Source of the DNA: Pseudomonadota bacterium
GTDB taxonomy: Bacteria; Pseudomonadota; Alphaproteobacteria; Rhizobiales; Beijerinckiaceae
Direction of reading: 5' to 3'
Assembly (NCBI GenBank): GCA_023423995.1
Contig: JAFAEL010000031.1
Location: 15,004-79,003, forward strand
DNA: 64,000 bases
The notes under the pieces were generated by a model. The model saw only the letters and a program-made list of their open reading frames with translations. It searched no databases and had not been told where the DNA came from. The translations under genes were made by a program, and so were the position numbers. Below, piece by piece: positions 10,811-63,822 of the stretch. Position 1 is the stretch's first letter; each line of letters opens with the position of its first letter.

Positions 10811-10835
10811 AGCATGCTGTTATTAGACGGCAGCG
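10810..10835 (+). repeat. IS630 left terminal inverted repeat
   Basis: 26-bp terminal repeat beginning GAGCATGCTGTT, directly after the TA at 10808. It pairs with 11821-11846 at 20 of 26 positions. The transposase stop codon (10823-10825) falls within it. Confidence 0.8.
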
Positions 10836-41989: not shown

Positions 41990-42414
41990 CAAGATTTTGT
42001 CTCTGAGGCTGATCGAAGAGAGGCAATCCGAAACAGCATCAGGTTGCCGGATTGACTGGCGAGGAGAGTGTTTGGAGCGGGTGGGTCGGTGCCGCCCCGA
42101 CCGCCAGACGAGGGGGAACCTCGTCGTCGCCTGCTTCACCCGCGTTGGATCAAGCATCCGATGCTCGCGGCAGCCCCACAACTTGTCTGGCGAGGTAATC
42201 CTCCGCGCCGGCTTCCGCGAAAGCTCATCTGGCGTAGGGCCTGATCGCGTCAGCTCCTCGGGTGGCGCCAGGGCTCCGGACGGGCGAGCAGCCCGTCCGG
42301 CCGCATCGGGCAGCCGCCGCCTTCGGAACGCAGGCCGGCCGAACCCACTTGATCCGTCTCAATCTGCCGAGCCGCGCGCTTGCTAGCTTAGCGGCAGGAT
42401 CTGGGGGATTGCTC
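41990..42414. other. 425-base interval upstream of the stress-protein gene
   Basis: Divergent promoter region. It contains a clear FNR/FixK-like box at 42349-42362 and nothing else recognisable. A GATCAA at 42146 lacks a second half-site. Confidence 0.55.
42349..42362 (+). promoter_or_regulatory. FNR/FixK-like box upstream of the universal stress gene
   Basis: TTGATCCGTCTCAA matches the TTGAT-N4-ATCAA consensus at 9 of 10 fixed positions. It ends 52 bases before the ATG at 42415, a distance that suits a class-II activator site near -41 with a short leader. It differs by one base from the box at 55054 read on the other strand. Confidence 0.7.
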
Positions 42415-43251
42415 ATGGCCATCGAGGGTTTGAAGAACCTGCTTGTCGGCTTCACCAAGGACGATGCGCGCCCGAGTTGCGCGGCGGCCTATGCCATCTC
42501 GCTCGCCAGGCAAGCCGGCGCGCACCTCACGATCCAGGGTCTATCCGCGCGGATCGTCGTCGCCGCCGTGGTTGCGACGGAGTTCGCACAGGGACTCGTC
42601 GCCGACGACAACCGCCGTCGCCTCGCATTGGCGGAGGCCGCCACGGACTCGGCGCGGCAGGACGCGGCGGCGCAAGGCGTTCCCTGCACAAGCGAGGCGA
42701 TGCAGCTGCCGCTGACCGATGCCGCGTCCGCGTTGGGTCGGCGGGCGCGCCTGCATGACCTGACGATCATGGACGGGCCGGAGGACCTGCTCTCGTTTCC
42801 GAGGGCGATGGTGGAGGAGGTGCTGTTCACGAGCGGGAGGCCGGCCATCATCCTTCCGAGAGCGGCCGAGTCGTTCCAGCCCGGTCACGTCATGGTGGCG
42901 TGGGACGGCAGTGCCGCGGCCGCCCGGGCGGTGAACGAGGCGATGCCGCTTCTCAGGGCCGCGGAGGAAGTCAGCCTGGTTACGGTGGCCGAGGCGAAGA
43001 AGGAGGCCATGATCCCAGGCTCCGAAATCGCCCCCCACCTCGCGCGACACGGGGTGAATGCGACGGTGGTCGATCTTCATCCCGGCACGCGCGATGTCGC
43101 GACCGCGCTCCGCGAGCAGGCGCAGACCCGGCGGACGAGCCTCATCGTGATGGGCGCCTTCGTCCATTCCTGGTGGCGCGAGGTCACGCTCGGGGGTGTG
43201 ACGGAGGCGTTCCTGGAGAAGCCGCCGGCTCCCCTCTTCCTGGCCCATTGA
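42415..43251 (+). CDS. Universal stress protein (UspA family)
   Basis: 278 residues, about twice the single-domain size, so two Usp-like units. The C-terminal unit is the clearer: GHVMVAWDGSAAAARAVNEAMPLL, then LIVMGAFVHSWWREVTLGGVTEAFLEKPPAPLFLAH, close to the ATP-binding G2xG9xG(S/T) end but with the pattern weakened. The N-terminal unit begins KNLLVGFTKDDARPSCAAAYAISLA. Usp proteins accumulate under oxygen or energy limitation in alphaproteobacteria. GGGGG precedes ATG 42415, and an FNR-like box lies 52 bases upstream. It is convergent with the alcohol dehydrogenase. Confidence 0.87.
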   Translation: MAIEGLKNLLVGFTKDDARPSCAAAYAISLARQAGAHLTIQGLSARIVVAAVVATEFAQGLVADDNRRRLALAEAATDSARQDAAAQGVPCTSEAMQLPLTDAASALGRRARLHDLTIMDGPEDLLSFPRAMVEEVLFTSGRPAIILPRAAESFQPGHVMVAWDGSAAAARAVNEAMPLLRAAEEVSLVTVAEAKKEAMIPGSEIAPHLARHGVNATVVDLHPGTRDVATALREQAQTRRTSLIVMGAFVHSWWREVTLGGVTEAFLEKPPAPLFLAH

Positions 43252-43259
43252 GGGCAGCG

Positions 43260-44243
43260 CTACGGAACCAGGACGGCGGCGCCGATGAGGCGTCCCTCGC
43301 GGAGGTCGGACAAGGCCTCGTTCGCCTGGGACAGCGGGTAGGGCACCGTCTGTGTCCTCACGCCGGCTTTTGGTGCGATGCTCAGGAAATCGAGCCCGTC
43401 CTGCCGCGTGAGGTTCGCCACGGAGACGACCTGCCGCTCCTCCCAGAGGATGCGGTAGGGAAAGCTCGGGATGTCGCTCATATGGATCCCGCCGCAGACG
43501 ACACGGCCGCCCTTGCCGACCGCCCGTAGCGCCCCCGGCACGAGCGGTCCCACCGGAGCGAAGATGATCGCCGCGTCCAGAGGGGAAGGAGGCGCCTCGT
43601 CGGACCCTCCCGCCCAGGCTGCGCCAAGCGAGCGCGCGAAGTCCTGCGCCGCGTCGTCACCCGGCCGCGTGAAGGCGAAGACCCGGCGTCCCTGCCACGA
43701 GCAAACCTGCGCGATGATGTGGGCCGCGGCGCCGAACCCGTAGATACCGACCGTCCCCGCATCGCCCGCAGCCACGAGCGATCGCCATCCGATGAGGCCG
43801 GCGCAGAGCAGCGGGGCCGTCGCGACCGGATCGTCGAAGCCGTCCAGAGGGAAGGCGAAATGCGCATCGGCGACCACGTGGGTCGCAAAGCCTCCATCCC
43901 GCGTGTAGCCGGTGAAGAGCGGCGTATCGCACAGGTTCTCCCGGCCGCCGGCGCAATAGGGGCAATGCCCGCAGGTATGGCCCAGCCAGGGCACGCCGAC
44001 CCGCTGGCCGAGCGAGAGCCCGGCAACGCCCACTCCGACGGCGTCGATCCGGCCGACGATCTCGTGGCCCGGTATGATCGGCAGCTTCGGGTCGGGCAGG
44101 TCGCCATCGACAACGTGCAGATCGGTCCGGCAGACGGCGCAGGCCTCGACGGCGAGGCGTATCTCGCCAGGTCCAGGCGCGGGCAGAGTGAGCTCCTCCA
44201 TCCGGAGAGGCTGGCCAAGGGCGTGCAGGACCATGGCCCTCAT
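43260..44243 (-). CDS. Zinc-dependent alcohol dehydrogenase family protein
   Basis: 327-residue medium-chain dehydrogenase. Catalytic zinc ligands are in CAVCRTDLHVVDGDLPDPKLPIIPGHEIVG (Cys and His-Glu), and the structural zinc lobe is GHTCGHCPYCAGGRENLCD with four cysteines. The NAD fold is VGIYGFGAAAHII. The 'CRTDLH' form is the AdhP-like/AdhA group that reduces acetaldehyde or oxidises primary alcohols. ATG 44243 has GGAGG upstream. It is the last gene of a unit with the small protein at 46011 and the NRAMP-like gene, so it would be under the same FNR-like box. Confidence 0.9.
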   Translation of the reverse strand: MRAMVLHALGQPLRMEELTLPAPGPGEIRLAVEACAVCRTDLHVVDGDLPDPKLPIIPGHEIVGRIDAVGVGVAGLSLGQRVGVPWLGHTCGHCPYCAGGRENLCDTPLFTGYTRDGGFATHVVADAHFAFPLDGFDDPVATAPLLCAGLIGWRSLVAAGDAGTVGIYGFGAAAHIIAQVCSWQGRRVFAFTRPGDDAAQDFARSLGAAWAGGSDEAPPSPLDAAIIFAPVGPLVPGALRAVGKGGRVVCGGIHMSDIPSFPYRILWEERQVVSVANLTRQDGLDFLSIAPKAGVRTQTVPYPLSQANEALSDLREGRLIGAAVLVP

Positions 44244-44348
44244 CGAAACCTCCGCTTCGCCAGCAGGTCTGCCTTCCCCGCCCGGCACCCAGTCACCGGC
44301 GGACCGGCGGACCGGCGATGCCTGACAGCGGGCCTCGCTGCGCAACGC

Positions 44349-45686
44349 TCAAACGGCCGCGGCAACCATCGCGCAGCTCGCGAGCGCCATCACGCCCGTC
44401 GAAACCCAACCGAGCCACTTGAGACCGCCCGCAACAGCGAACCGCCCCATCACGTCCTGGCGCGTACTGAACAGCATGATGATCGCCATGACGGGTACGG
44501 CGGTGACGCCGTTGATCACCGCGCTCCAGAACAACGCCTTGATCGGGTCGATCCCCGTGAAGTTCATCGCCATCCCGACGAGCGTGGCGAGGCCGACCGT
44601 GCCGTAGAAGGCCTTCGCCTCGTTCCAGCGCCTGGAGTACCCCGTCGGCCAGCGCCGGGCTTCACCGAGCGCGTAGGCCGCCGAACCTGCCAGGACGGGC
44701 ACTGCCAGCAGGCCCGTCCCGATGATGCCGAGCGCGAAGACGGCAAACGCGAACTGCCCAGCGATGGGCCGCAAGGCTTCAGCGGCCTGAGCGGATGTCT
44801 GGATCTCCGTGATGCCATGGGCATGCAGGGCCGCGGCGGTGGTGACGATGATGGCAAGGGCCACGATGTTCGACACTCCCATTCCGACGAGCGTGTCGAT
44901 CTCGATCCGGTGGAGCGCCACTTGCCCTTGCTCAGGGGCGTCGAGCAGGTCCTTGCGGCGGGCGTATGCGCCGATCTCCTCGACCTCCTCGGCGGCCTGC
45001 CAGAAGAACAGGTAGGGGCTGATCGTCGTGCCGAAGACGGCAACCACGGTGGTCAGGTAATCCGCCGAGAAAGTGATCTGCGGCCAGAAGAGGGATGCCG
45101 CAAGCGCTCCCCAATCCACATGCACAGTCACCAGGGCCGCGAAATAGGCGAAGAGGGCGAGCGTGAGCCACTTCAGTACGGCTACGTACCGCGAATACTG
45201 AAGAAAGACCTGCAGGTACACGCAAAGGCCTGCGAACAGGAGGATGTAGGGCCAGCGCGGGCCCGGAGCCAGCAGCGTCACAGCATCGGCCATCGCGCCG
45301 AGATCTGCTCCGAGATTGATGGTGTTCGCCGTGAGAAGGAGCAGGACGACCAGCTGGAGCAGCCAGTTCGGATAGTGCATGCGCAGCACGCCGGCGATGC
45401 CGTGGCCCGTGGTGCGTCCGACCCGGGCGGAGATCATCTGGATCGCCGCCATGAGCGGGTACGAGAACAGGAGAATCCAGGAAAGCTGGTAGCCGAACTG
45501 CGCCCCGGCCTGGCTATACGCCGCTATGCCGCTCGGATCGTCGTCGGATGCCCCGGTGATGAGGCCGGGACCGAGCACGCGGAAAAGCCGCGACCGGAAT
45601 CGCTCGATGGCAGGGGAGGGCCACTCGGGATCGTCGAGTTCCGTCCGATCCTGTTCGGCCTCCTGCTTGTCTCGGCCGTCCTGCAT
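44349..45686 (-). CDS. NRAMP-family transporter with altered metal-site motifs
   Basis: 445-residue membrane protein with about eleven hydrophobic segments. The first segment reads GPGLITGASDDDPSGIAAYSQ: DPSG (residues 50-53) in place of the DPGN that binds Mn/Fe in MntH. In the sixth segment the usual MPH motif is replaced by GTTISPYLFFWQA, so the coordinating methionine is missing. This branch is usually annotated 'divalent metal cation transporter', but its ion is uncertain (Mg or none cannot be excluded). ATG 45686 follows GGAGGG. It lies between the small unknown gene (25-base gap) and the alcohol dehydrogenase. Confidence 0.87.
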   Translation of the reverse strand: MQDGRDKQEAEQDRTELDDPEWPSPAIERFRSRLFRVLGPGLITGASDDDPSGIAAYSQAGAQFGYQLSWILLFSYPLMAAIQMISARVGRTTGHGIAGVLRMHYPNWLLQLVVLLLLTANTINLGADLGAMADAVTLLAPGPRWPYILLFAGLCVYLQVFLQYSRYVAVLKWLTLALFAYFAALVTVHVDWGALAASLFWPQITFSADYLTTVVAVFGTTISPYLFFWQAAEEVEEIGAYARRKDLLDAPEQGQVALHRIEIDTLVGMGVSNIVALAIIVTTAAALHAHGITEIQTSAQAAEALRPIAGQFAFAVFALGIIGTGLLAVPVLAGSAAYALGEARRWPTGYSRRWNEAKAFYGTVGLATLVGMAMNFTGIDPIKALFWSAVINGVTAVPVMAIIMLFSTRQDVMGRFAVAGGLKWLGWVSTGVMALASCAMVAAAV

Positions 45687-45711
45687 CGGGGAACCCTCCG
45701 GGACAGGGCAC

Positions 45712-46011
45712 TCAGTGCTGCCGGCAATGCCGGAGCAAATTGCGCCGGAGTTGCGGCCTGGCTCTCGTCGATAGGCCCGTCGTCCGCCTCGGTCTGGAGA
45801 TGTGTCCCGCGGACAGTTGCCGTGCCTCCAGGGCGTCGGCGAAGTGCGTCCAGTCGGCGACGCCGCGGCTGCGGCAAAACGCGGCGACCGCCTGCTGGCA
45901 GGCTTCCCGATCGTTCCTCGCCTCGAGCTGGACCTGCCACTGGCACGCAAGATGATCGTGCCCCTGATCATCGGGTACGGACTTCAGGAGCCGCAGCTGG
46001 AAGATCGGCAT
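45712..46011 (-). CDS. Hypothetical protein heading the NRAMP-ADH operon
   Basis: 99 residues, not recognised. GGAGG lies 6 bases before the ATG at 46011. The first 60 residues look structured: IFQLRLLKSV as a strand, CQWQVQLEARNDREACQQAVAAFCRSRGVADW as strand and helix, with three cysteines; the last 30 are basic and low-complexity. No signal or membrane segment. It is 25 bases ahead of the NRAMP-like gene and 52 bases behind an FNR-like box, which supports it being a real, co-regulated gene. Confidence 0.6.
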   Translation of the reverse strand: MPIFQLRLLKSVPDDQGHDHLACQWQVQLEARNDREACQQAVAAFCRSRGVADWTHFADALEARQLSAGHISRPRRTTGLSTRARPQLRRNLLRHCRQH

Positions 46012-46063
46012 AGAGGCCTCCAAGGCTTGCCGGACCAGTCTGAGGCGACAGAAAACCCGCGCC

Positions 46064-46077
46064 TTGCGCGAGATCAA
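46064..46077 (-). promoter_or_regulatory. FNR/FixK-like box upstream of the NRAMP-ADH operon
   Basis: Read on the minus strand: TTGATCTCGCGCAA, 8 of 10 matches to TTGAT-N4-ATCAA. It ends 52 bases before the ATG at 46011, the same distance as the boxes before the stress protein and phaC. Confidence 0.6.
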
Positions 46078-46208
46078 CCGGAAGTTGGTCGAGGAAGGCT
46101 GCGAGTCCCGTCCTGACAGGCAACCGGAGGCGACGCTCGGCTCGGGGGAAGGCGGAGGCTCTGACCGAGCCCGGCTAACTCAAGCCGTGGCACCGACCGG
46201 ACAGGAAG

Positions 46209-46238
46209 GAACGGCTCTGTCCCGATACGGAGCCGTTC
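46209..46238 (-). terminator. Terminator of the lipoyl-like gene
   Basis: GAACGGCTC and GAGCCGTTC are perfect 9-bp arms with a 12-base loop, 35 bases past the stop at 46273. On the minus strand it is followed by TTCCTTCCTGT. Confidence 0.65.
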
Positions 46239-46272
46239 GGCGGTGATTGACGGCGCTAGGGCAGCGACGCGC

Positions 46273-46512
46273 TCACGCGGAGAGCTCGGCGATAAGCGAG
46301 CCGGGCTCGACCATGCTGGATGCCGCCATCGTCGTCCGCAGGAGCCCGCCGGCGGGTGCGGATATCTCGTGCAGGTTCTCGCCGACCCGGATCATGGCGA
46401 TCGGCTGCCCCTGGGTCACGCTCGCTCCATCGGAAACGAGCCAGCGCTCGAGGATCGCCTCCGGCATGAGGCTGGTCGACCAAAGATCGTCGGGCACGCG
46501 GATGTCGGGCAT
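46273..46512 (-). CDS. Lipoyl/biotinyl-like domain protein lacking the modified lysine
   Basis: 79 residues, one complete lipoyl-type beta-barrel half: ILERWLVSDGASVTQGQPIAMI matches the EWLVKEGDxVxxGQPLAxx part of dehydrogenase E2 lipoyl domains, and HEISAPAGGLL matches the strand after the hairpin. In the hairpin the expected D-K-A is G-E-N (residues 44-46), so the lysine that carries lipoate or biotin is Glu45. It cannot be a normal carrier. GGGAG precedes ATG 46512; an ATG at 46617 with its own ribosome site would add 35 residues. It is divergent from phaC and may share its FNR-like box. Confidence 0.75.
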   Translation of the reverse strand: MPDIRVPDDLWSTSLMPEAILERWLVSDGASVTQGQPIAMIRVGENLHEISAPAGGLLRTTMAASSMVEPGSLIAELSA

Positions 46513-46682
46513 GCTGGTCTCCCTTGTGGATGGAGGACTGACGGCCACCGCCGAGGATCGTAGCAGGCGCGGCGTCAAAATGTCCTTCGCCTTGAGGGCG
46601 GCGATGCGGGTTTTCATCTGAGCTTCCGCCTTCCTGGCCCGGCGGACCCATGGGGAGCCTAGGTCCGGCGGCGCGACATGCC

Positions 46683-46696
46683 TTGATCTGAGTCAC
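46683..46696 (+). promoter_or_regulatory. FNR/FixK-like box upstream of phaC
   Basis: TTGATCTGAGTCAC: perfect first half-site, second half TCA kept. It ends 52 bases before the phaC ATG at 46749. It could also serve the divergent lipoyl-like gene. Confidence 0.6.
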
Positions 46697-46748
46697 AACA
46701 CCTCGAACCAGGCGGCCTATCTGGCGACCGGGACAGGAGTTCAGTCTG

Positions 46749-48605
46749 ATGCAGGCGAGACCGAGTGCCATAGCTCACCCCCAGCCACTCGCGGATTCGA
46801 ACGTCGTAGCGCTGCGGCCGGCCGGTCAGACGCCCCGAGAGGACACGTCGAAGCCGGTGCGAGGTCTCGACGACCGCTCGCTCGTCCAGTTCGGAAACTC
46901 GATCGACAATGCGGCGCATGCTGCTCTCGCCCGCCTCACCGGAGGCCTCTCGCCGGCAGCATTGGGCGGCGCCTATCTCGATTGGGCGGTCCATCTCGCC
47001 TTTTCGCCCGGCAAACAGACCGAACTGGCCGTCAAGGCCCAGCGCAAATGGATGCGGCTCGCCCATTACGGGCTATCCTGCTTCTTCGGCGGCGGGACGG
47101 CCGAGCCGTGCATCACGCCCCTGCCGCAGGACCGCCGGTTCTCGGATCCGCTCTGGCAGACCTGGCCGTATAATCTGGCCCACCAGGCGTTCCTCCTGAA
47201 CCAGCAATGGTGGCACAACGCCACCACCGGGGTCGCCGGCGTAACCCAGCCGCACGAGAACCTCGTCGAGTTCGCGACACGCCAGGCGCTCGACGTATTC
47301 TCCCCCTCGAACTACCTGCTCACCAATCCGGTCGCCCTGGACGAGACCGTCAAGACAGGCGGCAGGAACCTCGCCGTGGGCCTCAGAAACCTTGCCGAGG
47401 ACCTCGAGCGGGAGATCCGTGGCCGCGGACCTGCCGGAACGGAGGCGTTCCAGGTCGGGAAGGATGTCGCGGTGACGCCGGGCAAGGTCGTGTACCGGAA
47501 CCGCCTGATCGAGCTCATCCAGTACGCCCCCGCCACCGAGACGGTGAGGCCCGAGCCGGTGCTGATCGTGCCGGCCTGGATCATGAAGTACTACATCCTC
47601 GATCTTTCGCCGGGGAACTCGCTCGTCCGCTACCTGACGGAGCAGGGGTTCACGGTGTTCATCGTGTCCTGGCGCAATCCCGGCCCCGAGGAGCGCGACC
47701 TCAGCTTCGATGATTACCGGACGCTCGGCGTCATGGCTGCCCTGGATGCGATCGCTGCCATCGTGCCGGGCCGAAAGGTGCATGCGACCGGATACTGCCT
47801 CGGAGGCACGCTGCTTTCAATCGCAGCGGCCGCGATGGCGCGGGATGGCGACGACCGTCTCGCCACCATCAGCCTCTTCGCCGCCCAGCAGGACTTCACC
47901 GAGGCTGGCGAACTCACGCTCTTCATCAACGAGAGCCAGGTCAGCTTCCTGGAGAGCCTGATGTGGGCGCAGGGCACGCTCGATTCGGCCCAGATGGCCG
48001 GGGCGTTCCAGCTCCTGCGCTCGAACGATCTCATCTGGTCGCGGGTGGTGAATACCTACCTCATGGGCAAGCGGCAGGGGATGACGGACCTCATGGCCTG
48101 GAACGCCGATGCGACCGGAATGCCCTGCCGGATGCACTCGGAATACCTGCGCCACCTCTTCCTCGACAACGACCTCGCTGAAGGCCGCTTCAAGGTGGAT
48201 GGCCGCGCGGTCGCGCTGACCGACATCCGCGCACCGATCTGTGCGGTAGGTACGGAGCGCGACCACGTCGCGCCGTGGCGGTCCGCCTTCAAGGTGCACC
48301 TCCTCACGGACACGGAGGTCACCTTCATGCTGGCGAGCGGGGGACATAACGGCGGGATCGTCTCCCCGCCCGGCCGTTCCGGCCGCTTCTACCGCGTGCT
48401 CACGAAGGGCGCCCACGACCGGTATTCCGGTCCTGACGAGTGGCTGACCATCGCGAGACGGGAGGAGGGCTCCTGGTGGCCGGCATGGGCGGCATGGCTC
48501 GCGGAACGGTCCGGCGAGCCAGTCGCGCCTCCCACGATGGGTAGCGGCGACGGGCGATATGTGCCCCTCTGCGACGCCCCGGGAACCTACGTTCTCGAGG
48601 CGTGA
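46749..48605 (+). CDS. phaC: Poly(3-hydroxyalkanoate) synthase PhaC
   Basis: 618 residues, class-I size. It polymerises (R)-3-hydroxyacyl-CoA at the granule surface. The N-terminal PhaC domain holds DPLWQTWPYNLAHQAFLLNQQWW; the alpha/beta-hydrolase core has VPAWIMKYYILDLSPGNSLVRYL and the lipase-like box GYCLGG with catalytic Cys350. The Asp (TERDHVAPW) and His (GGHNGGIVSPP) of the triad follow. Its stop overlaps a GTG and lies 8 bases before the maoC-pta start, so the genes are one operon with ackA. It is preceded by an FNR-like box. Confidence 0.93.
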   Translation: MQARPSAIAHPQPLADSNVVALRPAGQTPREDTSKPVRGLDDRSLVQFGNSIDNAAHAALARLTGGLSPAALGGAYLDWAVHLAFSPGKQTELAVKAQRKWMRLAHYGLSCFFGGGTAEPCITPLPQDRRFSDPLWQTWPYNLAHQAFLLNQQWWHNATTGVAGVTQPHENLVEFATRQALDVFSPSNYLLTNPVALDETVKTGGRNLAVGLRNLAEDLEREIRGRGPAGTEAFQVGKDVAVTPGKVVYRNRLIELIQYAPATETVRPEPVLIVPAWIMKYYILDLSPGNSLVRYLTEQGFTVFIVSWRNPGPEERDLSFDDYRTLGVMAALDAIAAIVPGRKVHATGYCLGGTLLSIAAAAMARDGDDRLATISLFAAQQDFTEAGELTLFINESQVSFLESLMWAQGTLDSAQMAGAFQLLRSNDLIWSRVVNTYLMGKRQGMTDLMAWNADATGMPCRMHSEYLRHLFLDNDLAEGRFKVDGRAVALTDIRAPICAVGTERDHVAPWRSAFKVHLLTDTEVTFMLASGGHNGGIVSPPGRSGRFYRVLTKGAHDRYSGPDEWLTIARREEGSWWPAWAAWLAERSGEPVAPPTMGSGDGRYVPLCDAPGTYVLEA

Positions 48606-48613
48606 GGTCTCAC

Positions 48614-50023
48614 ATGGCGCTCAACTACGTCGAGAACCGGCTGGTCGGGGAGATCTCGGTCGGCGATCATGCCAGCCTCGTTCGGACGCTCAGGCCGGAG
48701 GACATCAGCCTCTTCGCCGTCGTGTCCGGGGACGTGAACCCCGCCCACCTGGACGCCGATTACGCGGCGACCGACATCTTCCACGGCGTCGTCGCGCACG
48801 GGATGTGGGGAGGATCCCTCATCTCGGCCGTTCTCGGAACCGAGCTCCCGGGCCCGGGCACGATCTATCTCGGCCAGACCCTCAAATTCGTGCATCCCAT
48901 CAGGGTCGGCGACACGATCACGGCGAGCGTGACGGTGCGGAGCAAGGACGAGGCCCGGTCTCGGCTCGTCCTCGACTGCCGGTGCGAAAACCAGGCCGGG
49001 GAAGCGGTCATCCTCGGCGAAGCGGAGGTGATCGCCCCCACGAAGAAGGTCCGTGTCCCGCGGGTGGTGCTGCCGGACGTGCATCTGCATGAGCGCGCTG
49101 CCCATTACGCGCGCCTCCTCGAGGCGGCGCGGAGCGCACCGCCGATCCGCACCGCGGTTGTCCATCCCTGCGATGAGCTGTCCATCCGGGGCGCCCTGGA
49201 TGCCGCCGAGGAAGGCCTGATCGTGCCCGTGCTGGTCGGGCCGCGGGCGAAGATCGAGGCGGCGGCTTGCCAGGCAGGCCTCTCCCTCGGCTCGCTCGAG
49301 CTGGTCGAGGCGCCGCACAGCCACGCGGCCGCGACGGCGGCCGTCGCCCTCGCGCGCTCGGGCAAGGTCCAGGCGCTGATGAAAGGGGCCCTGCATACCG
49401 ACGAGGTGATGGGCGCGGCCGTCGCACGCGAGGGCGGGCTCAGGACCGAGCGGCGGATGAGCCATGTCTTCGCGTTCGATGTCCCGAACTACAGGAAGCC
49501 GCTTTTCATCACGGATGCGGCCGTGAACATCGTGCCCACCCTCGAGGAGAAGCGCGACATCATCCAGAACGCGATCGATCTCTGCCGGGCGCTCGGCATC
49601 AGCGAGCCGAAGGTCGCGATCCTGTCGGCGGTCGAGACCATCTCGCCCAAGCTGGGTTCTACCGTGGATGCAGCCGCGCTCTGCAAGATGGCCGCCCGCG
49701 GCCAGATCACCGGCGGCCTGCTCGAAGGCCCGCTCGCATTCGACAATGCCGTCTCTCGCGAGGCCGCTGCCACGAAGGGCATCGTGTCGGCCGTTGCAGG
49801 GGACGCGGATATCCTCGTCGTGCCGGACCTGGAGGCGGGGAACATGCTCGCGAAGCAGCTCATCTACCTGGCGGGCGCGGATGCGGCGGGGCTCATTCTC
49901 GGCGCGCGCGTTCCGATTATCCTGACGAGCCGGGCAGACAGCCTCGAGGCCCGGATGGCGTCCTGCGCCCTGGCGAAGATCTTCGTCCAGCGCCAGATCG
50001 AGCCGCTGAAACTCGACGTGTGA
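48614..50023 (+). CDS. Bifunctional MaoC-type enoyl-CoA hydratase / phosphate acetyltransferase
   Basis: 469-residue fusion. Residues about 10-145 are an (R)-specific hydratase of the MaoC hot-dog fold, with SGDVNPAHLDADYAA containing the catalytic Asp/His. Residues about 165-469 are the phosphate acetyl/butyryltransferase domain (HPCDELSIRGALDAAEEGLIVPVLVG, MKGALHTDEVMGAAV, RRMSHVF, GALFDNAVS-like region). The hydratase half could feed (R)-3-hydroxyacyl-CoA to the adjacent PhaC; the transferase half interconverts acetyl-CoA and acetyl phosphate with AckA. GAGG lies upstream of ATG 48614. Confidence 0.92.
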   Translation: MALNYVENRLVGEISVGDHASLVRTLRPEDISLFAVVSGDVNPAHLDADYAATDIFHGVVAHGMWGGSLISAVLGTELPGPGTIYLGQTLKFVHPIRVGDTITASVTVRSKDEARSRLVLDCRCENQAGEAVILGEAEVIAPTKKVRVPRVVLPDVHLHERAAHYARLLEAARSAPPIRTAVVHPCDELSIRGALDAAEEGLIVPVLVGPRAKIEAAACQAGLSLGSLELVEAPHSHAAATAAVALARSGKVQALMKGALHTDEVMGAAVAREGGLRTERRMSHVFAFDVPNYRKPLFITDAAVNIVPTLEEKRDIIQNAIDLCRALGISEPKVAILSAVETISPKLGSTVDAAALCKMAARGQITGGLLEGPLAFDNAVSREAAATKGIVSAVAGDADILVVPDLEAGNMLAKQLIYLAGADAAGLILGARVPIILTSRADSLEARMASCALAKIFVQRQIEPLKLDV

Positions 50024-50095
50024 TCCGGGGCCGAATCCTCGTGTCCCATGCAGCTGACCTGTGCCGGAGCTGAATGCGCGGCGAGGAGATACCCG

Positions 50096-51259
50096 ATGAG
50101 CAACGCGATCCTCGTTCTCAATGCGGGCTCCTCAACTGTGAAATTCGCGCTGTACGAGGCCGAGACGCTGCAGCCGCTGTGCCGCGGCGAGGTTGACCGC
50201 GTCGGGGCGGATTCCCGCCTCCACGTATCGGGAGCTCACGCCGCCTCGTTCGAGACCGCATCGCCGCCGCCGGCACGCGGCAACCACGAGGATGCGGCCG
50301 CCTGGCTCCTCGACACGATACGGCACGAGCCCCAGTTCGCCCTGAAGGCGGCGGGCCACCGGGTCGTGCATGGCGGGCAGAGTTTTGGGGCTCCGGTCCT
50401 CGTCGACGATGTCGTGGCGGCAGAGCTTGCTGAACTCATCCCGCTTGCGCCGGCTCATCAGCCGCACAACCTCGCCGCGATCCGGGCCGTCGGGAGGGCC
50501 TGGCCGGGCCTGCCTCAGGTCGCATGCTTCGACACGGCCTTCCACCGCACCCAGCCGCGCCTCGCCCAACTCTTTCCGATCCCGCACGAACTCACGGCGG
50601 AGGGGATGCTCCGCTACGGCTTCCACGGCCTGTCGTACCAGCATGTCGCGGAGGTTCTCCCCGGGCTTGCGGGTGAGCGGGCGAAGGGCAGGGTGATCGT
50701 CGCCCACCTCGGTCAGGGAGCGAGCCTCTGCGCCATGAAGGACGGCCAAAGCATCGCCACCACGATGGGGTTCACGGCGCTCGATGGCCTGATGATGGGA
50801 ACCCGCTCGGGCGCGGTCGATCCGGGGCTCGTGCTCCACCTCATCCGGGAGCGGGGGATGGAACCGGCCGCAGTGGCCGAGGTCCTGAACAAGAAGTCGG
50901 GGCTCCTTGGCGTCTCCGGCGTCAGCAGCGACGTCCGCGATCTCCTGGCGACCTCCGATCCCCGCGCCGCCGAGGCGCTCGACCTTTTCGCCTACCGGGC
51001 GGTCCGCGAGATGGGTTCCCTCATGGCGGCGCTCGGAGGACTCGATGTCCTTGTCTTCACGGCCGGCATCGGCGAGCACGCGCCGGCCGTCCGGGCAGGG
51101 ATCTGCGCGGGCCTCTCCTGGGCGGGCGTGGTGCTGGACCCCACCCTCAACGAGGCTGGTCAGGGCCGGATCAGCGCGGCTTCCGCGCCGGTCGAGACCT
51201 GGGTGTTGCCCGCCAACGAGGAACTGCCCATCGCCAGGGCAACCCGCGCGCTCATCTGA
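50096..51259 (+). CDS. ackA: Acetate kinase AckA
   Basis: 387 residues. It transfers phosphate between acetyl phosphate and ADP, giving ATP. Signature 1 is LVLNAGSSTVKFALYE, signature 2 is YGFHGLSYQHV; HLGQGASLCAM, DGLMMGTRSGAVDPG and FTAGIGEHAP complete the ASKHA fold. Usual members have SSSxKF; here SSTVKF. GAGGAG precedes ATG 50096. It is the third gene of the phaC operon (72-base gap). The stop codon is inside a hairpin shared with the convergent kinase gene. Confidence 0.95.
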   Translation: MSNAILVLNAGSSTVKFALYEAETLQPLCRGEVDRVGADSRLHVSGAHAASFETASPPPARGNHEDAAAWLLDTIRHEPQFALKAAGHRVVHGGQSFGAPVLVDDVVAAELAELIPLAPAHQPHNLAAIRAVGRAWPGLPQVACFDTAFHRTQPRLAQLFPIPHELTAEGMLRYGFHGLSYQHVAEVLPGLAGERAKGRVIVAHLGQGASLCAMKDGQSIATTMGFTALDGLMMGTRSGAVDPGLVLHLIRERGMEPAAVAEVLNKKSGLLGVSGVSSDVRDLLATSDPRAAEALDLFAYRAVREMGSLMAALGGLDVLVFTAGIGEHAPAVRAGICAGLSWAGVVLDPTLNEAGQGRISAASAPVETWVLPANEELPIARATRALI

Positions 51260-51284
51260 CAGGGCCTCACCGGCCCTCGGTCAG
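51256..51284. terminator. Hairpin shared by ackA and the convergent kinase gene
   Basis: CTGAC-AGGGCC-N5-GGCCCT-N2-GTCAG folds into a two-part stem. The stop codons of both convergent genes fall inside the stem arms. No U tract follows on the plus strand, so termination efficiency is uncertain. Confidence 0.5.
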
Positions 51285-52831
51285 GCCGGGTCGGCGATCG
51301 CGGCAATCTCGGCGGCAAGCTCCGAAACCGGCCTCGCCGCATCGAGCGGCGCCCACGTGATCCTGCCGGTTGCTCGCGCCTCCTGCGCCAGCGCTACCTC
51401 CGGCCCGGCGTCGGAGGCATCTCCCCGGCGACCTGCAACGCGGCGGACGCGCTCATCCGTCGAAAGCGCCAGCCAGACTCCGATGAACGGGACGCCCGCC
51501 TCCCGGGCAAGGTGCTCGATCGCCTCTCGCTCCCCGGGCTCGCCGTGGACGGCGTCGACGACCACGGCGCTGCCTGCCTTGGCGGCGAGCAGCGCCAGGT
51601 CCCTCAGGCGCGCATAGACCTGCGCCGTTACGCCCGGTCCGTATGCCTCGCCCGGCAGCCGCTCCGTCTCGCCGACGCCGAAGAGGCGCTTGCGTTCGAT
51701 GTCGCTGCGCAGATGCACGGCGCCAGGAGCGGAGCCCAGATGCGGCGCGAGTTCCGCCGCGATCGTGCTCTTGCCCGTTCCGGACAGCCCGCCGATCGCC
51801 ACCAGGGGACCGCGAGACGAGCGCAGGAAGCCTGCCGCCGCATCGAAGTAGGTGCGGGCCGAGCGTTCTGCATCCGTGCGGGCGCGACCTTCGACGACGA
51901 GCGATCGAGCCGCCGTGACATGGGCGCGGATGGCGGCCCGCAGGCTCAGGAACAAGGGGAGGGCGGCCAGCCCAGGCAACTGGTCGTCAGTCCCGGACGC
52001 GATCAGGTAGCGGTTGAAGACGAGGTTTGCGCCGCGCCTGTCCCCTCGGACCCACAGGTCCATGAGGAGGAAGGCGAGATCATAGAGGACGTCTCCCGTA
52101 GCGATGTCCTCGTCGAACTCGATGGCATCGAAGAGGACCGGCCCACGCCCGGTCAGGACGATGTTGCCGAGGTGAAGATCGCCGTGGATGCGACGGACAT
52201 GGCCTTCCGCTCTTCGGAGCTCGAGAAGGGGACGACCCCGGTCGAGGGCCGCGCATTGGCCGGAATGGAGCGCCTCGACGGCCCCCGCCGGGAAAAGGTC
52301 CGGGAACCGCAGCACTGCGTCGCGAGCCTCTTCGATGAAGCGCGACAGGGATGGCAGCCACCGGTCACCAGGGGAGGGCGCTGCCCGGGCGTGCGACGCA
52401 GCAACCGCTGCAGCGAGCTGGCTCGCGAGCTCGGAAGGCAGCGCGGCACCCGCCGGCGTGCAGTCGAGCGTCCGGCTCTCGTCGAAGCGGCGCATGTGCA
52501 CCGCCCATTCCACCACCTCCCCCTCGCCGCCGAGCTCCAGTCCCCTCGCGGATCGGGTGATCGGGACGACGCCGAGGTAGAGCTCCGGTGCGTTGGGCTG
52601 GTTGAGGGCGAGCTCCGCCTCGCAGGCCGCCTTCCTCCGCGCCAACGTGGAATAGTCCATGTAGGGGAAGCGAACCGCTCGCTTGACCTTGTAGACATCC
52701 GAGCCGGCGAGGAAGACGGCGGCCCCATGGGTGTCGATCCGGCGAACCGCCGGGGCGCCCGGATAGGTGCCCGGCTCCGCCAGGACGGCAAAGACGCATT
52801 CCTGCGCGTCTGCTGCGCTCTGCCTGCTCAT
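51281..52831 (-). CDS. Aminoglycoside-phosphotransferase-like / AAA ATPase two-domain kinase
   Basis: 516 residues. The N-terminal half is an APH/choline-kinase-like fold with HGDLHLGNI (residues 216-224) as catalytic loop and FDAIEFDEDIATGDVLYDLAFL as the metal-binding segment. The C-terminal half is a P-loop kinase, AIGGLSGTGKST (347-356), with DAVHGEPGERE and RRGDASDAGPE as in small-molecule kinases of the gluconate/zeta type. This fusion is widespread and of unknown substrate. It ends an operon of SPW protein, CBS-BON and universal stress protein, all linked to energy or oxygen stress, so it may phosphorylate a stress metabolite. This is inference. Confidence 0.85.
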   Translation of the reverse strand: MSRQSAADAQECVFAVLAEPGTYPGAPAVRRIDTHGAAVFLAGSDVYKVKRAVRFPYMDYSTLARRKAACEAELALNQPNAPELYLGVVPITRSARGLELGGEGEVVEWAVHMRRFDESRTLDCTPAGAALPSELASQLAAAVAASHARAAPSPGDRWLPSLSRFIEEARDAVLRFPDLFPAGAVEALHSGQCAALDRGRPLLELRRAEGHVRRIHGDLHLGNIVLTGRGPVLFDAIEFDEDIATGDVLYDLAFLLMDLWVRGDRRGANLVFNRYLIASGTDDQLPGLAALPLFLSLRAAIRAHVTAARSLVVEGRARTDAERSARTYFDAAAGFLRSSRGPLVAIGGLSGTGKSTIAAELAPHLGSAPGAVHLRSDIERKRLFGVGETERLPGEAYGPGVTAQVYARLRDLALLAAKAGSAVVVDAVHGEPGEREAIEHLAREAGVPFIGVWLALSTDERVRRVAGRRGDASDAGPEVALAQEARATGRITWAPLDAARPVSELAAEIAAIADPA

Positions 52832-52856
52832 CTGGCTCGAGGATCGTTCGGGAACC

Positions 52857-53678
52857 TCAATGGGACATGAGCACCGGCAGCGTCATCGCCTGGAGGATGG
52901 TGCGGCTCGTGCCGCCGAGCAGCGCCTCCCTGACGCGGGAATGTCCGTAAGCCCCGAGGACGAGAAGGTCGGAGTTCGAATCCGCGACCCGGGACAGCAG
53001 CGTCTCCGCGATCGGGATCGTCGTCGTCAGGCGCCGAAAGCTCGCCTCGATGCCGTGCCGCGCGAGATGCCGCACGAGCTTCGGCGCGAAGCTCTCGTCC
53101 TCTTCGTCACCCTCCCGGACGACGCTCACGACCTCGACGTGACCCGCACGGCGAAGGAGCGGGATCGCATCGGCGAGCGCGCGAGCCGCGGTCGAGCTGC
53201 CGTCCCAGGCGACGGTGGCGTGGGCGAAGCGAGGTGGAGCAACCTGCGTGTAGGGCACCAGCAGCGTCGGCCGGCCCGAGTGAATGAGCAATGCATCGAG
53301 ATAGAGGTCGCCGGGCTTCGCGCGCCCAGGCTCGGATTGTTCGATCACGCACAGGTCGCTCAGGCCTGCAGCCTGCCTGATCTGCTCCGACACCAGAACG
53401 GGCTCCGCGACGATCGACGTGCACTCGACCGTCAGATTGGCCTGCCTCGCTTCCGCTTCGAAGCGCAGCTTCACGGCATTGGCCATCTCGATCGCCTCGT
53501 CGCGGGCAGTCGCATAGACGCCGAGATCGACCGGGACGTAGGGGAGGGCGGGCACGGAGGGCTCCGGGGCAACGCATACGCCGGAGAGCGCGGCGTCGAA
53601 TACACGCGCCAGACCGAGCGCGTATGGTCCGGCGCGCTCGCCGACATTGTCCAGCAGAACGAGAATGTCCTTGATCAT
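52857..53678 (-). CDS. Universal stress protein, two-domain
   Basis: 273 residues, two Usp units. The N-terminal unit begins KDILVLLDNVGERAGPYALGLARVFDA. The C-terminal unit has ATVAWDGSSTAARALADAIPLL and ends DLLVLGAYGHSRVREALLGGTSRTILQAMTLPVLMSH, a complete ATP-binding G-xx-G-x9-G(T) motif. It resembles UspA-type proteins of rhizobial low-oxygen regulons. GGGAGG precedes ATG 53678. It lies 25 bases ahead of the APH-AAA gene and 164 bases behind the CBS-BON gene. Confidence 0.92.
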   Translation of the reverse strand: MIKDILVLLDNVGERAGPYALGLARVFDAALSGVCVAPEPSVPALPYVPVDLGVYATARDEAIEMANAVKLRFEAEARQANLTVECTSIVAEPVLVSEQIRQAAGLSDLCVIEQSEPGRAKPGDLYLDALLIHSGRPTLLVPYTQVAPPRFAHATVAWDGSSTAARALADAIPLLRRAGHVEVVSVVREGDEEDESFAPKLVRHLARHGIEASFRRLTTTIPIAETLLSRVADSNSDLLVLGAYGHSRVREALLGGTSRTILQAMTLPVLMSH

Positions 53679-53842
53679 CGCCGACCTCCCTGTGGCGGGC
53701 GAGCCCGAAGCCGCTCGGCGCTGGGTCTGCGCGAGCGGCGCTCGGCACGGGCCACGTCTCTGTCGCCCCTCGAACGTGAGCCTGTTTCTGCCCGCTGTCA
53801 CCCCGCCCGGATCGTCTCCCAAGCGGGCGCTCCGCGGAGGGT

Positions 53843-54532
53843 CTAGGCGGTCGCAGCTGCGATCGGGCTGACCTGGATATGGTCCTCGACGGCCTTCACA
53901 CCGGGTATTCGCTCCGCCGCAACGCGGACCGCCTCGCGCTCGGTCGTCGAACTGCAGAACCCCCAAAGGCTCACGACACCGCGGCTCACCGTGGCATTCA
54001 GGAGCGCGGTATGGGCCCAGGGCTGAGTATTGAGGTGTTTCATCAGCTCCTCGCGGATCACCTCGTCGGAACGCGCGCTCTCCTGCTCGACCCCGTGTGT
54101 CGCGATGGCTTGGACGAGGTTCGCCCGGCTGACGATGCCCAGGAGCTTGCCGTCCCTGACGATCGGAACGCGCTTGATGGCGTTCTTCTCCATGAGCATG
54201 GCGACCTCCTGGAGCGGGGTCTCGGGTTCCGCGGTGACGACCGTCCGCGTCATCACCTCCTCGACCTTGGACCCGTGGGACCTGACGTACTCGGCAGCGA
54301 GCAGCCGGTCGCTCGCGAGAAGCTGCAGCCACCATGACCTGCGCCGCTCGGTTCCGATTTCCACGCGATGGAGAAGGTCGCCTTCGCTGACGATCCCCAC
54401 GAGCTTGCCCGCCTCGTTCACGACCGGGGCAGCGCTGATGCGATGTTCGGTGAGCCGTGCGGCGGCCTCTCTCACCGTGGTGCAGGGCATCACTGTGACG
54501 ACGTTCGAAGTCATGACATCCCTGGCGTTCAT
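53843..54532 (-). CDS. CBS-domain pair with C-terminal BON domain
   Basis: 229 residues. Two CBS units (ARDVMTSNVVTVMPCTTVREAAARL and EEVMTRTVVTAEPETPLQEVAMLM), each ending in the usual KLVGIVSEGDLL / KLLGIVSRANLV, would bind an adenine nucleotide and sense energy charge. A BON domain follows from about residue 160 (LNTQPWAHTALLNATVSRGVVSLWGFCSS), usually a membrane- or phospholipid-binding fold, though no signal peptide is present here. GAGGAG precedes ATG 54532. Middle member of the SPW operon. Confidence 0.92.
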   Translation of the reverse strand: MNARDVMTSNVVTVMPCTTVREAAARLTEHRISAAPVVNEAGKLVGIVSEGDLLHRVEIGTERRRSWWLQLLASDRLLAAEYVRSHGSKVEEVMTRTVVTAEPETPLQEVAMLMEKNAIKRVPIVRDGKLLGIVSRANLVQAIATHGVEQESARSDEVIREELMKHLNTQPWAHTALLNATVSRGVVSLWGFCSSTTEREAVRVAAERIPGVKAVEDHIQVSPIAAATA

Positions 54533-54609
54533 GACATGCTCCTCTCTGCGGGCGGCCACGATCGGGACGGCGCACCCTGCGGCGGCGATCAGCTGGAGTC
54601 GGCCGGAGA

Positions 54610-54981
54610 TCACGCCCGCGCGGCGCCGCCCCCGTGGTGCGCGCGCCAGATCTCGATCAGCGCCAGGAGAGCGGTTGCAATGCCCAGTGTCGCGATGCTC
54701 CAGACCGCCGTGTCCGACAGGCCCGTGAAGCCCATTGCCCAAGGCGAGAGGGCTGCCCAGATCCCGAGCGCAGCCACGATCCAGTCTTCCCACTCGTCGA
54801 GATGCTTTGCTGCGCCCAGGCTCAGGGTCACTATGGCTGCGCCCGAAATGACGACACTCGTCAGGGCGGCGATGTTGTCGGCGAAGCCGGCGAGCCATGG
54901 CGTTGCGATCAACAGCGCGCCCAGCACGGCGTTGATATAGTTCGTTGCGGCGTATTCCTGCGGGTCCCTGAGGCGGATCAT
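54610..54981 (-). CDS. SPW-repeat membrane protein
   Basis: 123 residues with four hydrophobic segments in two repeats, each carrying the family motif: LIATPWLAGF (variant TPW) and WAALSPWAMGF (SPW). Function unknown; the family is common in rhizobia and actinobacteria. GGGGAGG precedes ATG 54981. It heads the operon SPW - CBS/BON - USP - APH/AAA and is preceded by an FNR-like box 72 bases upstream. Confidence 0.88.
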   Translation of the reverse strand: MIRLRDPQEYAATNYINAVLGALLIATPWLAGFADNIAALTSVVISGAAIVTLSLGAAKHLDEWEDWIVAALGIWAALSPWAMGFTGLSDTAVWSIATLGIATALLALIEIWRAHHGGGAARA

Positions 54982-55053
54982 TCCTACCTCCCCATGTAGC
55001 GCGCCCTGACGCTCAGGGCAGCGAATAGGATACGAGGTCCCCGGGCGAACGCT

Positions 55054-55067
55054 TTGAGACAGATCAA
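55054..55067 (-). promoter_or_regulatory. FNR/FixK-like box upstream of the SPW operon
   Basis: Read on the minus strand: TTGATCTGTCTCAA, 9 of 10 matches to TTGAT-N4-ATCAA and only one base different from the box before the stress-protein gene. It ends 72 bases before the SPW start codon. Confidence 0.7.
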
Positions 55068-60821: not shown

Positions 60822-63248
60822 ATGGACGTTGCGACAGCTGAATCGCTTGCCATCAGCACCCACGGTCCAGTCCGATCAACCGTGAAGGGTACTCCTCTGG
60901 AGAGCCGGGAACTTCAGCAGATCAACGCTTATTGGAACGCGACGCTCTACCTCGCGGCAGGGATGATCTACCTGAAGGACAACCCGCTGCTGCGCGAGCC
61001 CCTGAAGCCCGAGCACGTGAAGCGCCGCCTCCTCGGCCACTGGGGCAGCAGCCCGGGACTGAGCCTCGTCTACGTTCACCTCAACCGCCTGATCAAGAAA
61101 TACGACCTGGACGTCCTCTATGTGGCCGGGCCCGGGCATGGCGCGCCCGGCGTGATCTCGAACGTCTATCTGGAGGGCGTCTATTCCGAGATCTACGGCG
61201 CCGTGACCCAGGACGAGGTCGGCATGCGGCGGCTGTTTCGGCAGTTCTCGTTTCCGGGCGGCATCGGCAGCCATTGCACCCCGGAGACGCCCGGCTCCAT
61301 CCATGAGGGCGGAGAGCTCGGCTATTCGCTCTCCCATGCCTACGGCGCGGCCTTCGACAATCCGGGGCTGATCGTGGCTACGGTGGTCGGCGACGGCGAG
61401 TCCGAGACGGGCCCGCTCGCCACCGCCTGGCATTCCAACAAGTTTCTCAACCCCGTCCGCGACGGCGCGGTCCTGCCGATCCTCCACCTGAACGGCTACA
61501 AGATCGCGAACCCGACCATTCTCGCCCGCATCTCGCACGAGGAGCTGGAGGCCCTGTTCCGCGGCTACGGCTACGAGCCGTATTTCGTGGAGGGCGAGGA
61601 TATCGACGGCATGCACCAGGCGCTCGCCGCCACCCTGGAGCATTGCGTATCCGAGATCCGGCGCATCCAGGACGAGGCCCGCGGCTCCGCCGCCGAAATC
61701 GAGCGTCCCCGCTGGCCGATGGTGATCCTCCGCAGCCCGAAAGGCTGGACCGGCCCGAAGGAGGTCGACGGCCATGCCGTCGAAGGCTCATGGCGCTCCC
61801 ACCAGGTGCCGCTGGCCGGCGTGCACGAGAACCCGGCGCACCTGGCCCAGCTGGAGGAATGGCTGCGCAGCTACCACGCCGAGGAGCTCTTCGACGAGCG
61901 CGGACGGCTCCTGCCCGAGCTCGCCGAGTTCGCGCCGACCGGAACGCGGCGCATGGGGGCCAACCCGCATGCGAATGGCGGCGTGCGCCGGGCGCTCTGG
62001 ATGCCGGATTTCCGCGACTACGCGGTCTCGGTCCAGGCTCCGGGCGCAGCGGAAGTCAGCCCGACGAAGGTGTTCGGCGAGCTCCTCCGCGACGTCGCGC
62101 GCGAGAACCCGAACGACTTCCGCGTCTTCTGCCCCGACGAGAATGCCTCCAACCGGCTCACGGCCGTCTACGAGGCGACCAAGAAGACCTGGCTCGGCGA
62201 GTATCTGCCGGAGGACAGCGACGGCGGCGAACTTGCGCCCGACGGACGCGTCATGGAGATGCTGAGCGAGCACACGCTCGAAGGCTGGCTCGAGGGATAC
62301 GTCCTGACCGGCCGGCACGGCCTCCTCTCGACCTACGAGGCGTTCGTGCATGTGATCGACTCGATGTTCAACCAGCACGCGAAGTGGCTCGACAAGTGCC
62401 GGGAGCTGCCGTGGCGCGCCGACGTGCCCTCGCTCAACCTCCTGATCACCTCGACCGTCTGGCGGCAGGACCACAACGGGTTCACGCACCAGGATCCGGG
62501 CTTTCTCGACGTCGTGGCCAACAAGAGCCCGCACGTGACCCGGATCTACCTGCCGCCTGACGCCAATTGCCTGCTCTCCGTCGGGGATCACTGCCTGCGC
62601 AGCCACAACTACATCAACGTCATTGTGGCCGATAAGCAGCCCCACCTGACCTATCTCGATATGGACAGCGCGATCAGGCACTGCACGAAGGGCGTCGGGA
62701 TCTGGGACTGGGCGAGCACGGACCAGGACAGCGAGCCGGACGTCGTGATGGCGAGCTGCGGCGACGTCGCCACCATGGAAGCGCTCGCCGCCACGGCCCT
62801 GCTCCGCGAACACTTCCCCGAGCTGAAGATCCGCTTCGTCAATGTCGTGGATCTGTTCAGGCTCGTGCCCGGCACCGAGCATCCGCACGGGCTCTCCGAC
62901 CGCGAGTTCGACGCGCTGTTCACGCCGAACAAGCCGATCATCTTCAACTTCCACGCCTATCCGTGGCTCATTCACCGGCTCACCTACCGGCGGACCAACC
63001 ACGGCAACCTCCACGTCCGCGGCTACAAGGAGAAGGGCAACATCAACACGCCCATGGAACTCGCGATCGAGAACGAGGTCGACCGCTTCACGCTGGCGAT
63101 CGATGCGATCGACCGCATCCCGGCGCTGAAGCTGCGCGGCTCGCACGCGCGGGAGGCGCTGCGCGATCGCCAGCTCGAGTGCCGCCGCTACGCCCATGCG
63201 GAGGGGATCGATCCACCGGAGGTCGTCGGATGGCGCTGGATGCAGTGA
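60822..63248 (+). CDS. xfp: Xylulose-5-phosphate/fructose-6-phosphate phosphoketolase
   Basis: 808-residue thiamine-diphosphate enzyme that splits xylulose-5-P or fructose-6-P with phosphate into acetyl phosphate and glyceraldehyde-3-P or erythrose-4-P. Signature 1 is EGGELGY (residues 162-168); signature 2 ends in VVGDGESE around 190. The pyrimidine and C-terminal domains follow ([38 protein letters not shown]). GGGAGGAAG precedes ATG 60822. Its product acetyl phosphate is the substrate of the PTA and AckA encoded 10-14 kb upstream. Confidence 0.96.
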
Positions 63249-63672: not shown

Positions 63673-63822
63673 CAGCTAAAAACCGGGCGCAGCGGTGATT
63701 TAGGAAGTCCAACGTCTCGTTACCGAATTTAATATCCCAGTGTTGCTGAGCACCTATTGCGATAAATCGCCAATCATTGAATCAACACGATTTTAGCGAC
63801 CGGTTAATGTAGGTTGATAATC

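Follow-up and report, generated by a model that had tools for sequence, protein, structure and literature searches.

The FixK2 regulon of Bradyrhizobium diazoefficiens is marked by boxes of the consensus TTG(A/C)-N6-(T/G)CAA (PMC9104804), and Table 2 of the same paper lists phosphoketolase-acetate kinase, Usp, phaC2 and CBS genes as carrying FixK2 boxes and as falling in expression in a fixK2 deletion. Higher levels under microoxia are listed for the PhaC2, Usp, CBS and phosphoketolase proteins (PMC6515984), and for nosR (box TTGATCCAGCGCAA) one start mapped by rapid amplification of cDNA ends (RACE) lies 40.5 nucleotides (nt) from the box axis and a second at 67.5 (PMC5582078). In the core regulons predicted from 87 genomes by Dufour et al. 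2010, that of FixK is listed with a phosphoketolase, a CBS protein, a zinc alcohol dehydrogenase (ADH), a putative kinase and hypothetical proteins and that of FNR with UspA, and the chromatin immunoprecipitation (ChIP) targets given for FnrL of Rhodobacter sphaeroides include phbC-fabI and uspA (PMC2908626). Here we describe a locus resembling these systems in a member of the Beijerinckiaceae, found in a window of 64,000 nt (64 kb) of contig JAFAEL010000031.1, in which four candidate FixK-type boxes precede, respectively, the universal stress protein gene usp1, an unk-NRAMP-ADH unit that starts with a gene of an unnamed family (unk), a phaC-pta-ackA unit and a unit led by an SPW-repeat gene. 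This 12.7-kb stretch very probably represents a class II low-oxygen regulon island of FixK (or FNR) type, whose activator would be encoded elsewhere. Provided that the genes following each box make up operons, almost all of the DNA between 42.3 and 55.1 kb would lie in box-led units.

The locus resembles the B. diazoefficiens FixK2 regulon in the form of the boxes, in the distance of about 40.5 nt from box axis to transcription start (mapped for nosR, predicted for the window) and in the shared target types, namely phosphoketolase-acetate kinase, Usp, phaC2 and CBS genes. It likewise shares the site and the types of members, likened by gene type, with the predicted FixK and FNR core regulons (PMC2908626). 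Unlike in B. diazoefficiens, the genes are arranged as unk-NRAMP-ADH, SPW-CBS-Usp-kinase and lipoyl/phaC, and the window is known from sequence alone. The pioABC promoter of Rhodopseudomonas palustris TIE-1 is also described as class II, having a FixK box and a -10 as its sole element near consensus; in contrast to the window, its box is centred at -44.5, a second box lies at -137.5 and the start is 177 bp before the ATG (PMC3050613). The FixK/FNR class II regulon itself is known; what is new is one further example in this organism, to which the low-oxygen regulon would thereby be extended.

Direct checking of the sequence confirmed the four boxes at the positions and on the strands reported in an earlier note on this DNA, each of them starting with TTGATC:

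42349-42362, plus strand: FixK-type box 1, TTGATCCGTCTCAA, preceding usp1; fits TTG(A/C)-N6-(T/G)CAA
46064-46077, minus strand: FixK-type box 2, TTGATCTCGCGCAA, preceding unk-NRAMP-ADH; fits TTG(A/C)-N6-(T/G)CAA
46683-46696, plus strand: FixK-type box 3, TTGATCTGAGTCAC, preceding phaC; its minus-strand reading precedes the lipoyl-like gene
55054-55067, minus strand: FixK-type box 4, TTGATCTGTCTCAA, preceding the SPW unit; fits TTG(A/C)-N6-(T/G)CAA

The distances from box to ATG had also been given correctly, being 52 nt for box 1 (ATG 42415), box 2 (ATG 46011) and box 3 (ATG 46749) and 72 nt for box 4 (ATG 54981), and Shine-Dalgarno-like stretches, judged by eye, stand before the ATGs of the box-led genes. 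Compared with TTGAT-N4-ATCAA, the pattern cited in the earlier note, none of the four is an exact match (1, 2, 2 and 1 mismatches for boxes 1 to 4), and the second half of box 2 reads GCAA. The class II geometry proposed at the same time found support in -10-like hexamers that lie 22 to 27 nt past the box end at all four boxes:

42384-42389, plus strand: -10-like hexamer TAGCTT, box 1 end +22 to +27; predicted start near 42396
46037-46042, minus strand: -10-like hexamer CAGACT, without TA, box 2 end +22 to +27
46718-46723, plus strand: -10-like hexamer TATCTG, for phaC, box 3 end +22 to +27
46656-46661, minus strand: -10-like hexamer TAGGCT, candidate for the divergent lipoyl-like gene, box 3 offset +22
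55027-55032, minus strand: -10-like hexamer TATCCT, box 4 end +22 to +27; predicted start near 55020

With the -10 at +22 to +27, the predicted start falls about 34 nt beyond the box and thus about 40.5 nt from the box axis. The leader predicted in this way is about 19 nt in three units, close to the 18 bases or so that had been claimed, but about 39 nt in the SPW unit.

We propose that genes of low-oxygen metabolism and of stress are gathered here in a compact island with four (probably five) transcription units, each of which would start at a class II sigma-70 promoter with a FixK-type CRP/FNR box in place of the -35 element. At low oxygen the box would be occupied by a dimer of FixK (or FNR) whose gene would lie in another part of the genome, and RNA polymerase would engage the -10 hexamer 22 nt past the box and begin transcription at the starts predicted above. 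The identity of the regulator, its binding, the start sites, the dependence on oxygen and the extents of the operons are what we infer from the sequence.

Support for this geometry came from an alignment of 35 promoters of relatives, which were chosen by a box lying 45-85 nt from the start, the -10 region not being used in the choice. Of the 35, 21 had TA at offset 22 or 23 from the box end, and at most three had it at any other offset up to 40, except for eight at offset 33. The latter peak stems from eight similar Bradyrhizobium-type unk promoters, and without them TA stood at 22/23 in 13 of 27. After the 35 promoters had been collapsed at 75% identity to 28, a matrix covering the box and offsets 22-28 was built from the relatives only, and in a scan of the window its top seven site/orientation matches all fell on the four reported boxes. 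Box 4 had the top box score of the window, and the identical 14-mer occurs in a relative (G405:C80, locus L175). Boxes 1 and 4 reached their top score in the direction away from the gene, which is explained by the near-symmetry of the box. The -10 scores of the four window sites are all 2.1 or higher (p = 8e-5 versus intergenic background, if the sites are independent). The case shows that likely class II promoters in GC-rich DNA can be found by reading the raw sequence.

The earlier note had taken the 52-nt distance from box to start codon as a conserved layout, and this part of it fell. Among 55 boxes of relatives, measured within a searched span of 25-120 nt upstream, none lay at 52 nt; the median was 63, the range 26-118, and 34 of the 55 were at 57-67 nt. 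The closest usp1 orthologue (genome G478, 71% identical) has the box TTGATCCGTCGCAA, with 13 of 14 letters the same, 55 nt before a GTG start, and the closest unk orthologue (also G478, 61%) has a box identical to box 2 at 48 nt from the start, and a fixed 52-nt layout was rejected on these grounds. In Table 2 of PMC9104804 the first box nucleotide is at -66, equal to 52 nt, in two of 26 FixK2 units, compared with three times at -66 and once at -86 in the window. When four distances were drawn from the set of relatives, at least three were equal in 4.2% of the draws (p = 0.042), before allowing for the post hoc choice of this feature. The correction to be made is that the spacing from the box to the predicted -10 (offset 22/23) recurs, and not the distance to the start codon; the equal distances result from leaders of similar length and amount to a mild coincidence added to a real box/-10 constraint. 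What stands of the first claim is the FNR/FixK type of box, the class II geometry, a short leader, and a low-oxygen regulon as the best reading of the locus, well supported by the comparison with relatives.

Among 16 genomes compared, the Mfd protein of the window is closest to that of a Methylobacterium genome (71%), which makes the source probably a member of the Hyphomicrobiales. Boxes upstream of orthologous genes were counted in relative loci around the MaoC-Pta gene, for which the best 80 of 582 confirmed loci were used. In 35 of the 80 loci a box agreeing in at least 9 of 10 consensus positions lay no more than 500 nt before phaC, or before pta if phaC was not adjacent, three loci that have hardly any or no sequence ahead of the reference start being counted as boxless; all 80 loci together held 211 such sites in 1.5 Mb. 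Within 250 nt, in a count that left out six loci overlapping longer ones as well as hits without a start codon among 255 gene hits, a box was present upstream of phaC in 23/42, unk in 12/18, usp2 in 5/11, usp1 in 2/6, cbs in 2/7, adh in 3/7, lipoyl in 2/2, xfp in 1/2 and pta in 4/80 cases, and in none for ackA (0/71), aph (0/2), nramp (0/2), spw (0/1) and glgX (0/1). The published consensus was sought at 25-120 nt, leaving out duplicates, loci fetched via regulator or palindrome searches (L113-L157, L177-L216), hits, other than those of usp, that start beyond the first 35% of the query, and starts closer than 150 nt to a locus end. It was found before usp1 in 7/9, usp2 in 7/12, unk in 18/29 (the 29 homologues including about eight similar Bradyrhizobium-type copies), phaC in 13/39, xfp in 2/3, cbs in 2/4, lipoyl in 1/2, adh in 1/8 and FixK-like genes in 2/12 cases, and at a rate of 1/247 in an inside-gene control. 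The counts at 25-120 nt were 0/80 for pta, 1/73 for ackA, 0/4 for aph, 0/2 for nramp and 0/1 for glgX; genes expected to lie within operons are mostly boxless, as they should be. Boxes were thus conserved upstream of orthologous usp1, usp2, unk and phaC, the SPW unit not being among these. A recurring box variant, TTGCGCTGGATCAA, was seen in four loci (L107, L084, L112 and L164) before unk, usp2 and BON/CBS-like genes, and in Methylobacterium nodulans a usp gene adjoins the phosphoketolase gene.

The density of matches along whole genomes, a check suggested in the earlier note, was followed in part. In five related genomes perfect palindromes numbered 8, 9, 14, 70 and 19, and matches to the reversed pattern 1, 2, 5, 5 and 1. 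Placement was determined with a self-made crude gene caller for 44 of 50 perfect sites, fetched from four of these genomes (G405 7/8, G331 9/9, G011 14/14, G145 14/19; G051 was left out). Only 16 of the 44 lay deep within called coding DNA, versus 86% of the DNA being coding by these crude calls, so that the sites were denser outside called genes.

As regards the activator, no HTH_Crp domain was found among the 49 open reading frames (ORFs) of the window scanned with Pfam, and tblastn of six CRP/FNR proteins versus the window gave nothing better than E 0.021. The absence of a regulator gene from the window, as first reported, accordingly holds for the CRP/FNR type, but a LysR-type regulator gene is located at 1237-2160. 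Genome G331 carries a larger island (contig C46, 84.6-124.4 kb; loci L173 and L108), in which a large part of this gene set lies within 40 kb: two usp1-like genes, SPW, a CRP/FNR protein, a Pta that lacks the MaoC part, ackA, a phosphoketolase, an ADH, additional usp genes, BON, NRAMP, unk, lipoyl and a second SPW match. These genes are accompanied by 15 boxes of at least 9/10. The CRP/FNR protein of the island (L117) matched FixK2 (PDB 4i2o) at E 1e-67 versus FNR at 3e-22, and has the recognition helix ETVSR, which we take to be a signature of FNR/FixK. Four of five relatives had a FixK2-like protein at E 1e-20 or better. As the putative regulator we lean towards FixK rather than FNR, in view of the GCAA half of box 2 and of the FixK2-like protein in the related island.

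An FNR/FnrN-type iron-sulphur protein sensing oxygen directly, in place of FixK under FixLJ, is rather unlikely as the activator, although a case for it can be made: FNR and FixK share the site (PMC2908626; PMC4999443), FnrN-like proteins with N-terminal cysteines occur in two relatives (G011, L128; G051, L124), and phbC-fabI and uspA are among the FnrL targets mentioned above. Against it stand the GCAA of box 2 along with the frequent TTGCGC..GATCAA boxes in relatives, a form covered by the FixK2 consensus, and the FixK2-like nature of the regulator inside the G331 island. It is quite improbable that a nitric-oxide sensor of DNR/NnrR type acts here, as no denitrification gene was present among the 49 window ORFs scanned and the gene set of the island matches the FixK/FNR lists, even though DNR is reported to recognize almost the same site (PMC2908626). 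Slighter still is the probability that the TTGATC motifs are plain sigma-70 -35 elements working with no activator, for which their resemblance to TTGACA and the -10-like hexamers before the genes could be cited; TTGATC and the -10 are 29 nt apart and not 16-18, by which this candidate was ruled out, and the second half-site recurs in relatives.

Several observations weigh against a FixK-type regulon at this locus. By itself the raw box count is not significantly above chance: the published FixK2 consensus has four matches in the 64 kb, namely boxes 1, 2 and 4 and a site at 33869 within a transporter ORF, versus 1.25 expected, and at least four were obtained in 5 of 100 shuffles of the window. 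It was owing to the weakness of this count that relatives were used for independent support. Box 3 ends in TCAC, one departure from the consensus, and so is not among the matches. The -10 of box 2 lacks TA and its matrix margin is small (13.9 versus 13.4 for a site at 4048 and 13.3 for one at 18679), and two of the three top matrix matches are boxes read away from their own gene, with a -10 score near zero. In the relatives, the unk orthologue of G478 has the same box as the window and a poor -10, and TA was present at offset 21-24, on either side, in only 9 of the 44 perfect palindromes, so that the -10 signal is not general to all palindromes. No consensus box was found at 25-120 nt in 26/39 phaC, 11/29 unk, 7/8 ADH and 2/2 NRAMP orthologues; SPW orthologues had a box in 0/1 (250 nt) and 1/2 (25-120 nt), the latter at 112 nt, and conservation of a box upstream of the SPW unit is accordingly weak. 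G405, which shares the lipoyl-unk-NRAMP order, yielded no FixK2-like protein at E 1e-20, an assembly that may be incomplete, and a search for phaC in the stretches fetched from G331, G405 and G478 found none. The boxes are judged not to be due to chance on the basis of their position, the -10 register and the boxes at orthologues in relatives. Chance, by which AT-richer intergenic DNA would yield TTGA..TCAA matches and the 52-nt coincidence would have drawn the eye, is the most improbable explanation, being favoured by the window count and the p = 0.042 of the three equal distances but opposed by the independent training set, the -10 register, the orthologous boxes and the inside-gene control.

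The genes of the island are as follows, and the names given earlier (usp; unknown-NRAMP-ADH; phaC-pta-ackA; SPW operon) are all consistent with the Pfam results:

42415-43251, plus strand: usp1, universal stress protein (Pfam Usp)
43260-44243, minus strand: zinc-type alcohol dehydrogenase, ADH (Pfam ADH_N)
44349-45686, minus strand: NRAMP-type metal transporter (Pfam Nramp), 67-70% identical in G331/G405
45712-46011, minus strand: unk, 99 amino acids (aa), of an unnamed family of about 70 aa; conserved part residues 1-67
46273-46617, minus strand: lipoyl-like domain protein (Pfam Biotin_lipoyl); start ATG 46617 (65 nt from box 3) or ATG 46512
46749-48605, plus strand: phaC, polyhydroxyalkanoate (PHA) synthase (Pfam PhaC_N)
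48602-50023, plus strand: MaoC-Pta fusion, phosphate acetyltransferase (Pfam PTA_PTB and MaoC)
50096-51259, plus strand: ackA, acetate kinase (Pfam Acetate_kinase)
51281-52831, minus strand: APH-fold/AAA_33 kinase-like protein (Pfam AAA_33, APH)
52857-53678, minus strand: usp2, universal stress protein (Pfam Usp)
53843-54532, minus strand: CBS-CBS-BON protein (Pfam CBS, BON)
54610-54981, minus strand: SPW-repeat membrane protein (Pfam SPW)

The packing is tight, with 8 bases between the stops of the convergent usp1 and ADH genes and 21 bases between those of the convergent ackA and kinase genes.

For unk, 1291 homologues were obtained, and the organism names shown among the best 120 listed are Bradyrhizobium. 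An alignment of 17 sequences of the family revealed invariant M1, K10, V12, Q24, A31, A37, W54, A58 and D59, and the extra tail of about 30 aa in the window protein is present in full only in P0001 of these 17. Searches with the 17 members gave no convincing family either in NCBIfam (best E 0.011 for one member, and E 0.033 for one family hit by five members) or in Pfam (best E 0.069, one member). The model of residues 1-67 has a beta-beta-alpha-beta arrangement with a predicted local distance difference test (pLDDT) score mostly >90, and no PDB structure was matched by Foldseek at E 0.001, the best having E 0.22.

On the minus strand box 3 reads GTGACTCAGATCAA, followed by TAGGCT at +22 and by an ATG 65 nt away, and stands before the lipoyl-like gene, so that -10-like hexamers occur at an equal offset both ways (TATCTG for phaC, TAGGCT for the lipoyl-like gene). 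Use of TAGGCT as a -10 is a tentative assignment, its matrix score being 1.2, which 16% of intergenic places reach. Two lipoyl-like orthologues likewise have boxes upstream, at 72 and 113 nt in one (L107:10385) and at 78 and 141 nt in the other (L108:10716); GTGATCCAGATCAA at 72 nt and CTGATCCAGATCAA at 78 nt are followed by poor -10s. Box 3 may be a shared divergent promoter of phaC and the lipoyl-like gene. As we read Table 2 of PMC9104804, the box of phaC2 is the reverse complement of that given for the CBS gene blr6074, and the same holds for hemN2 and bsr7087, which provides a precedent for a FixK2 box shared by divergent genes.

Lipoyl domains usually carry the motif DKA. In three genomes the lipoyl-like domain has no lysine at the usual lipoyl position, ENL or EAL being found instead. 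It is possible, if somewhat doubtful as a whole, that the unk family and this lysine-less lipoyl-like domain, both preceded by FixK-type boxes, belong regularly to the low-oxygen programme of the Hyphomicrobiales, that the lipoyl-like domain might dock to 2-oxoacid dehydrogenases without the cofactor, and that box 3 is a single FixK site from which phaC and the lipoyl-like gene are activated divergently through -10 elements at an equal offset. The two unnamed proteins, appearing to belong to the low-oxygen response, offer fresh leads.

Outside the island, a phosphoketolase gene, a FixK target in other species, lies at 60822-63248 (plus strand) near glycogen genes, with no high-scoring box upstream of it here. 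The sequence TTGATCTGAGTTAC, like box 3 in 13 of 14 letters, is located at 63823 in the AT-rich intergenic stretch 63804-63840 near the end of the window, and the next gene may lie beyond. Further observations in the window were an ORF for a DDE_3-type transposase at 10823-11764 (minus strand) beside a ketopantoate hydroxymethyltransferase gene, and a Ser/Thr kinase domain fused to a sulfatase-modifying-factor domain at 29398-31542 (minus strand).

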